Source: Meiothermus sp.
GTDB lineage: Bacteria > Deinococcota > Deinococci > Deinococcales > Thermaceae
Length of the DNA: 64,000 bases
Direction of reading: 5' to 3'
Assembly: GCF_026004075.1 (NCBI RefSeq)
Contig: NZ_BPIK01000001.1
Location: 1,156,041 to 1,220,040, forward strand
The translations under genes were made by a program, and so were the position numbers. Position 1 is the first letter of the stretch. Every line of letters begins with the position of its first letter. A model generated the notes under the pieces. The model saw only the letters and a list, made by a program, of their open reading frames with translations. It had not been told where the DNA came from and searched no databases. This document shows positions 51,506-57,106 of the stretch, piece by piece.

Positions 51506-56086
<4,581 letters not shown>

Positions 56087-56151: not shown

Positions 56152-56757
56152 ATGAAAGCCAAACTTTACCTAACTTTTCAGCAGGTGGGAGCTGATTTAT
56201 TTGCAGCAGGGCTGGCCTCGGCCACCTCGGGCAACTATTCCGTTCGTGTGGGGGAGGGCCTCTGGATAACCCGCTCGGGTGCTCAGAAGGCCCACCTAAC
56301 TCCGGAAGATATCATGCTCTTGCCCCTCGAGTCTGACCCCGAAAAAGACCGGGGCGCGTCGGTGGAGCGGGTGATCCACCGTGCCATCTATCATCAAACC
56401 GATGCCACCGCCGTGGTGCACGCCCATCCGCGCCACGCCATTGCCCTGTCGTTTCACCTCGATGCCATCGAACCGATTGACCTCGAGGGGCGCTATTACT
56501 TCGAGCGAATCCCGGTGGTAGCCCCTAAAACACTTTCAGGAACCCAGGAAGCAGCCGAGGCAGTAGCAGAGGCTCTTGAGCAGCACTCTGCTTGCGTGGT
56601 TCGCGGCCACGGGGCCTTTGTTAAAAGTAGCCTGGAGGCTCCGGAGCAGGCCCTACTGCAAGCTTACTCGTTGATGACGAGCCTCGAGGAAGCCTGTGAA
56701 GTGCTTTTTCTCGAGCGTCTGTGGTGGGGAGGTCGTAGTAGGGCTTCCTCGAAGTGA
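56152..56757 (+). CDS. Class II aldolase/adducin family protein
   Basis: A 201-residue zinc-dependent aldolase-like protein. SATSGNYSVRVGEGLWIT (about 23-40) binds phosphate/substrate in L-fuculose-phosphate aldolases, Glu73 in SVERVIHRAIY is the catalytic acid position, and His90/His92 (VVHAHPRHA) and a later His (VRGHGAF) bind zinc. Substrate unknown. The last 25 codons (SLEEACEVLFLERLWWGGRS...) are repeated in diverged form right after the stop (see the repeat entry). Confidence 0.85.
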   Translation: MKAKLYLTFQQVGADLFAAGLASATSGNYSVRVGEGLWITRSGAQKAHLTPEDIMLLPLESDPEKDRGASVERVIHRAIYHQTDATAVVHAHPRHAIALSFHLDAIEPIDLEGRYYFERIPVVAPKTLSGTQEAAEAVAEALEQHSACVVRGHGAFVKSSLEAPEQALLQAYSLMTSLEEACEVLFLERLWWGGRSRASSK

Positions 56758-56836
56758 GCGTCTCGAGGAAACCTGCGAGGTGCTGTTTCTCGAGCACCTA
56801 TGGCGGGGAGGGCAAAGCGGGGCTTCATCGAAGTAA
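56683..56836 (+). repeat. Imperfect tandem repeat, 79-bp period, at the aldolase 3' end
   Basis: The 75 nt from CTCGAGGAA to the TGA stop (56683-56757) recur at 56762-56836 with 60 of 75 bases the same, ending in TAA. The second unit, in another frame, encodes LEETCEVLFLEHLWRGGQSG, parallel to the real C-terminus. Most differences are at third codon positions, so it looks like the tail of a former paralogous gene. Confidence 0.85.
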
Positions 56837-56887
56837 GAGGAAGCTACAGAAGGGTTCCGGTGCGGCTTAGGGGTAGACTGGGCCTTG

Positions 56888-57106
56888 ATGAAGGTGCTTT
56901 TCGTAGAAGGTAAGAACCCGGAACCCCTGCACCAGCTCGCCCGGCAACATCCCTATCCCTACCGTCTGCTTCACCGGCCTGAACAGGGGCTTTACCTGCT
57001 CGAGGTCTGGGCGTATGGCCCCGAGCTGGAGACAGCGGCGATGGCGCTCGAGGGTTTTCATAGCTGGAGCTTTGAACTGCTCGAAGAAGGGCTTTGCCGC
57101 CCCTGA
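56888..57106 (+). CDS. Small hypothetical protein
   Basis: A 72-residue frame (MKVLFVEGKNPEPLHQLARQ ... ALEGFHSWSFELLEEGLC) with alpha/beta character and no signal or membrane segment. ATG 56888 lies 8 nt after a TAGACT box (56874-56879), a leaderless layout like other genes in this window. It is followed after 9 nt by the alpha/beta hydrolase gene, so both are likely on one transcript. I do not recognise a family. Confidence 0.6.
   Translation: MKVLFVEGKNPEPLHQLARQHPYPYRLLHRPEQGLYLLEVWAYGPELETAAMALEGFHSWSFELLEEGLCRP

Follow-up and report, generated by a model that had tools for sequence, protein, structure and literature searches.

Tandem repeats of gene ends past the stop codon in Meiothermus: a probable array of displaced C-terminal tails behind a class II aldolase gene

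Variable-number tandem repeats are head-to-tail units whose copy number differs among relatives. In the rhs genes, as set out by Jackson et al. (2009; PMC2935791), an intact gene has behind it a row of displaced C-terminal ends; each arriving end moves the previous one to a silent downstream position, and exchange takes place between lineages. For an orphan Rhs toxin of Salmonella, Koskiniemi et al. (2014; PMC3967940) describe how a downstream orphan end recombines with the main gene, which then carries the orphan end. The repeated gene ends of Meiothermus described here may, by analogy, work like Rhs displacement without being members of Rhs. Neither of the two genes concerned, an aldolase (PF00596) and a permease (PF00528), is an rhs or polymorphic toxin gene with a core and a variable tip. 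No report of such arrays was found among the listed titles and beginnings of abstracts in a thin search on Meiothermus repeats and gene transfer, on duplication past the stop and on homology-facilitated illegitimate recombination.

The window, the whole stretch of 64 kb that was analysed, comes from a genome (G000) of the same genus as the named Meiothermus species, and in it a 79-bp repeat extends across the stop codon of a gene for a class II aldolase (Table 1). The repeat search gave a direct repeat of period 79 with copies of 76 nt (56683-56758 and 56762-56837) that are 80% identical. Tandem Repeats Finder scored the array (56683-56834) at 206, the higher of its two rows in the window. Copy 1 is the end of the aldolase ORF at 56152-56757, that is, its last 24 codons and the stop. 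Copy 2 begins after 4 further nucleotides past that stop, lies in the +1 frame, ends in its own stop and reads LEETCEVLFLEHLWRGGQSGASSK. Judged by reading frame, only unit 1 would belong to the aldolase gene, and we take unit 2 as a silent tail. A recount over 75 nt confirmed the identity given in the original prediction and its 9 third-position differences among 15, the others being 3 at first and 3 at second positions. The third-position excess over one third has a one-sided binomial p = 0.031, and the dN/dS comparison which that prediction had proposed gave dN 0.107 and dS 0.824 over 24 codons.

Table 1. Features of the aldolase locus and of the second array in the same genome
Feature	Position	Strand	Basis
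rpoC, upstream neighbour	51506..56086	+	label from recognition of protein sequence
Class II aldolase/adducin-family gene, PF00596, 201 aa; its end is unit 1	56152..56757	+	ORF and domain match
Unit 1, 79 nt: last 24 codons, TGA stop, GCGT	56683..56761	+	repeat search, Tandem Repeats Finder, species comparison
Junction GCGT/CTCGAG, identical in G003 and G013	56758..56761	+	species comparison
Unit 2, putative silent tail: 24 codons and TAA, +1 frame relative to gene	56762..56836	+	repeat search, frame
Inverted repeat CTTCCTCGA...TCGAGGAA across the unit junction; one exact match in own genome	56744..56770	.	genome search
GAGGAAGC, abutting unit 2 at its 3' side; possible third-unit relic, weak	56837..56844	+	sequence
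72-residue ORF, downstream	56888..57106	+	ORF
Alpha/beta hydrolase gene, PF00561	57116..57985	+	ORF and domain match
Further tail array across a stop codon, with three tails, behind an ABC-type permease gene	L080:18367-18578 (G000:C1:978367-978578)

The similarity between the two units is not due to chance. The coding tail of the aldolase scored 45 against its own spacer, the shuffle maximum was 13, and 0 of 300 shuffles scored as high. The copies are alike at 40 of 48 positions, which sets them as far apart as the tails of different species. All 35 candidates scored in the window genome gave no further locus with the unit; an interspersed mobile repeat was rejected, since the unit occurs at one locus only in its own genome. 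We read the repeat as two tandem copies of a 79-bp unit, composed of C-terminal codons, stop and 4 bases, and consider it rather probable that Rhs-like tail displacement produced them.

Among the genomes compared, G003 is M. hypogaeus, G010 M. taiwanensis, G009 M. rufus, G001 M. granaticius and G022 Calidithermus chliarophilus; G016 is presumably M. ruber. The neighbourhood varies among them. The 72-residue ORF of the window gave no Pfam or NCBIfam match at E 0.001. Many outgroup genomes have, in place of the spacer at window positions 56757-56888, an aldolase stop that runs into the start codon of the gene behind it (ATGA; gap 2), and the outgroups G018, G022 and G001 have spacers. In the clade with arrays the spacer after the aldolase measures 11 to 261 nt, often with a promoter-like TACAGT/TAGACT near the ATG (by eye). 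Unlike the window, the loci of G012, G016 and G010 (L016, L017 and L013) have the aldolase, 72-aa and hydrolase genes away from rpoBC, with rpoB on other contigs or about 190 kb away.

We searched 61 genomes for the aldolase at the protein level and obtained a match in 43, with one match each in 40 of these. The window genome showed the gene and one extra tail, G003 the gene and two extra tails, and G035 a second match, 29% identical, on another contig. Gene end and spacer were then read at 30 loci, including all 18 genus genomes. There are two tail copies in G000, three in G003 (whose extra tails are also present at L003), two in G013, and one in each of the other 15. Thus the copy number varies between species. 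The 79-nt period and the junction recur in G000, G003 and G013, each time behind a single aldolase gene, and in each species copy 2 begins with the same base of the tail. Head-to-tail copies, a fixed period and a copy number that varies among relatives make the locus an array like the variable-number tandem repeats. It differs from these in that its unit spans a stop codon and its silent copies can keep a coding signature.

These comparisons bear on the history that the original prediction had drawn from the identity and the third-position excess, namely two tandem aldolase paralogues that became one by recombination, with the downstream copy's tail remaining as a scar. Among the 43 matching genomes, not one showed two full-length aldolases in tandem. 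Moreover, a single gene with the same 3' repeat in relatives, which that prediction had itself named as speaking against it, occurs in G003 and G013, which lie in different branches and carry three and two copies of the 79-nt unit. The common starting base of copy 2 in the three species also speaks against this history. We therefore regard the paralogue history as very improbable, and a codon-biased repeat past a stop need not imply a lost paralogue.

Within the arrays of the relatives, the copies are much alike. In G003, copies 1 and 2 differ at 1 of 75 positions and copies 1 and 3 at 5; the two copies of G013 differ at 5. Such near-identity would be as in a recently turned-over array. No clear third-position bias exists among them (2 of 5 differences for c1/c3, 2 of 6 for c2/c3 and 0 of 1 for c1/c2 in G003; 3 of 5 in G013). 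The tail of single-copy G002 has its last bases in common with c3 of G003, which suggests that the last unit is probably the old one. In the window, GAGGAAGC at 56837-56844 is possibly, on weak grounds, what is left of a third unit. When the query was limited to the coding tail, relics of silent tails in nine single-copy genomes with a spacer stayed within the shuffles in eight; the score of G006 was borderline, being reached by 4 of 300 shuffles.

Two further readings concern what unit 2 might do where it stands. It could be kept as a post-stop RNA structure, a hairpin across the junction. An inverted repeat does span the unit junction, and the region folds somewhat better than shuffles (z -2.0, 6/200). 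Against this, 15 of the 18 genus genomes are without a second unit, the arms are the two unit ends and are already in single-copy G002, and no T-run was seen by eye behind the hairpin, so that we hold this function highly unlikely. A +1 frameshift at the stop could also extend the aldolase through unit 2, which in G000 lies within an open stretch of 52 codons in that frame. Any unit 2 at a 79-nt period falls in the +1 frame, the stop contexts are not the same across the three species (AAG TGA, TCG TAG, AAG TAA), and no known shift signal was found by eye; we give this reading next to no chance.

A more serious competitor of tail displacement is that the gene end was simply duplicated in tandem and copy 2 then drifted neutrally, the bias being due to chance and to selection on copy 1 only. 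This would fit the changes of copy number and the near-identical copies in G003 and G013. Between 11 species, 66% of the differences in the first 48 nt of unit 1 are at third positions. We simulated unit 2 conditioned on 15 differences. If it was neutral from birth, at least 9 of 15 third-position differences had P 0.08-0.10, and at most 5 changed residues without a stop had P 0.02-0.04. Two coding copies fitted the differences well in the simulation, and a mixture of half coding and half neutral was nearly as good (log L for 9/15 of -1.90 vs. -1.69). Taken alone, the codon bias is weak (p = 0.03) and a unit 2 that was neutral from birth is mildly disfavoured. That coding constraint shaped part of the divergence of unit 2 is the favoured view, though a weak one if only the aldolase locus is considered. 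The original claim that unit 2 was once coding thus stands in part, and stronger ground for it comes from the permease array, for which plain duplication fails. For the aldolase we think plain duplication unlikely, though well short of negligible.

The second array was found by scanning sampled stretches of G000 (1.26 Mb) for gene ends repeated past the stop. It lies behind a gene for a binding-protein-dependent transport permease (PF00528), with two more tails past the stop, and it is the clearer example of displaced tails. The expressed tail (c1) and the first silent tail (c2) of G000 differ at 8 of 42 positions, and 8 of 8 differences are at third positions. For a neutral silent tail, this has P <= 0.0005. 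Corresponding counts are 7 of 7 in G012 (not independent of G000), 4 of 4 in G006 and 8 of 11 in G013; the third tail of G000 is less biased, with 5 of its 9 differences from c1 at third positions. A silent tail matching the tail expressed in another lineage, as Rhs-like displacement would have it, was found here: c2 of G000 is identical at 41 of 42 positions to the expressed tail of G016, and the sole difference is in the stop codon. The expressed tails of G000 and G013 differ at 3 of 42, and between the silent tail of G013 and the expressed one of G008 there are 6 differences. The third-only differences between c1 and c2 together with the G016 match indicate that silent tails can have a coding past; those of the permease have one and match tails expressed by other species.

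By eye, a post-stop permease tail is present in 8 of 20 loci (G000, G012, G010 in decayed form, G006, G013, G003, G002 and G005), a short remnant in 2 (G008 and G015) and none in 10. The exact 17-base linker between the permease tails gave 15 matches in 37 genomes, 13 of them at the permease locus, and none elsewhere in its own genome, where it is confined to this single locus. Identity around the permease is 80-98% among G000, G012, G016 and G010 over most of the gene and is mosaic-like; this pattern does not tell which tail came first.

Displaced tails would be the likeliest account of the aldolase codon bias as well. Recombination or slippage between units would add and remove copies. The exchange of aldolase alleles among Meiothermus species would import tails that evolved as coding sequence elsewhere, and the incoming tail would push the resident tail downstream into a silent position. 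A deletion between two units could then return a silent tail to the gene in frame. We infer the direction of these events from sequence comparison.

Exchange between species was approached with a species tree from rpoB, G005 being left out with rpoB split over two contigs. The tree of rpoC tails was unreliable, because several loci have no rpoC beside the aldolase, and it was replaced by that of rpoB. In the rpoB tree, G000 groups with G010, G012 and G016, and G003 with G002, G006 and G015; the position of G013, at the base of the same clade of 11 species, is not resolved, and the three genomes with arrays are in different branches. Parsimony by hand made three gains cheaper than one gain and five losses. 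The shared junction and period, on which a common origin of the three arrays rests, favour an array as old as the clade with frequent loss, and parsimony favours repeated origin with the same ends. The aldolase tree rejects the rpoB clade of G002, G003, G006 and G015 (p-AU 4e-5; with G004 added, p-AU 3e-4). It keeps G000, G010 and G016 together (support 74/58), and G000, G010, G016 and G008 as a group were not rejected (p-AU 0.13). The rejection of rpoB clades shows that aldolase alleles have moved between Meiothermus species. Between G000 and G010 or G016, the aldolase body is 77-78% identical, the rpoC segments (two of the tail compared) 92-95% and the hydrolase 88%. Receipt of a foreign aldolase allele by G000 itself is suggested. 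A match of the silent tail to one expressed in another lineage is seen for the permease; for the aldolase, unit 2 took no resolved place on the species tree. Limited gene flow or recombination between Meiothermus populations is mentioned in an earlier report (PMC10130571).

The resemblance to Rhs C-terminal displacement, as described by Jackson et al. (PMC2935791), thus lies in a gene followed by displaced C-terminal ends, in shunting and in exchange between lineages. Rhs tips are non-homologous and carry core fragments there, whereas the Meiothermus tails are homologous, comprise 13 (permease) or 24 (aldolase) codons, and belong to metabolic genes with no known benefit of variation. A recombination such as that of the Salmonella orphan end is proposed for the G016 permease tail; the account of the former (PMC3967940) concerns selected toxin activation in the laboratory, and here species comparison is the only source. 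It is conceivable, and we put it forward tentatively, that some Meiothermus metabolic genes end in arrays of interchangeable tails, that is, silent and once-expressed C-termini that would be restorable by deletion and would record interspecies allele exchange. If this is right, C-terminal displacement as described for Rhs genes extends to metabolic genes in which no selection for variety is obvious, and short repeats past a stop are a fossil record of alleles that a lineage formerly carried.

A census of genes whose end recurs in the 400 nt downstream of the stop, at a score of at least 22, gave 8 of 1,167 genes in 1.264 Mb of G000 (two stretches with masked runs, 7,500 N in all). Five of the eight cases are in one repeat-rich stretch of L081. 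Another, a rhodanese gene (PF00581), has a similar stretch farther along and was discounted as probably a repeated domain. This leaves the aldolase and the permease. Elsewhere the census gave 0 of 379 genes in G013, 0 of 382 in G016 and 1 of 363 in G032, which is of the same family and another genus; the last case is without third-position bias (8, 9, 7). An upstream control, with the 400 nt before the gene, gave 6 cases in G000 (5 in L081), 1 in G013, 0 in G016 and 1 in G032 (the same gene), and random downstream stretches gave 0 at score 22 or more in each set. Because the excess of G000 outside L081 is only 3 vs. 1, the permease case rests on relatives and not on the census. In the first 464 kb, a shift scan found 24 repeats, of which 20 were in L081, one was a masked run, one was weak in L089, and two were the permease and aldolase arrays. 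The region L081:3000-7400 is repeat-rich, with units mostly about 67-74 nt apart or about twice that, and judged by this spacing only it looks like a CRISPR array.

The palindrome CTCGAG, with which both aldolase units start, occurs 2.4 times per kb, which is 7.5x the zero-order and 1.2x the Markov expectation. Because it is near the Markov expectation, no weight was given to it as a breakpoint mark. Its frequency in the samples of G000, G013 and G016 is 2.2-2.6 per kb (6.6 to 7.7x zero-order, about 1.2x Markov), and 0.99 per kb in G032.
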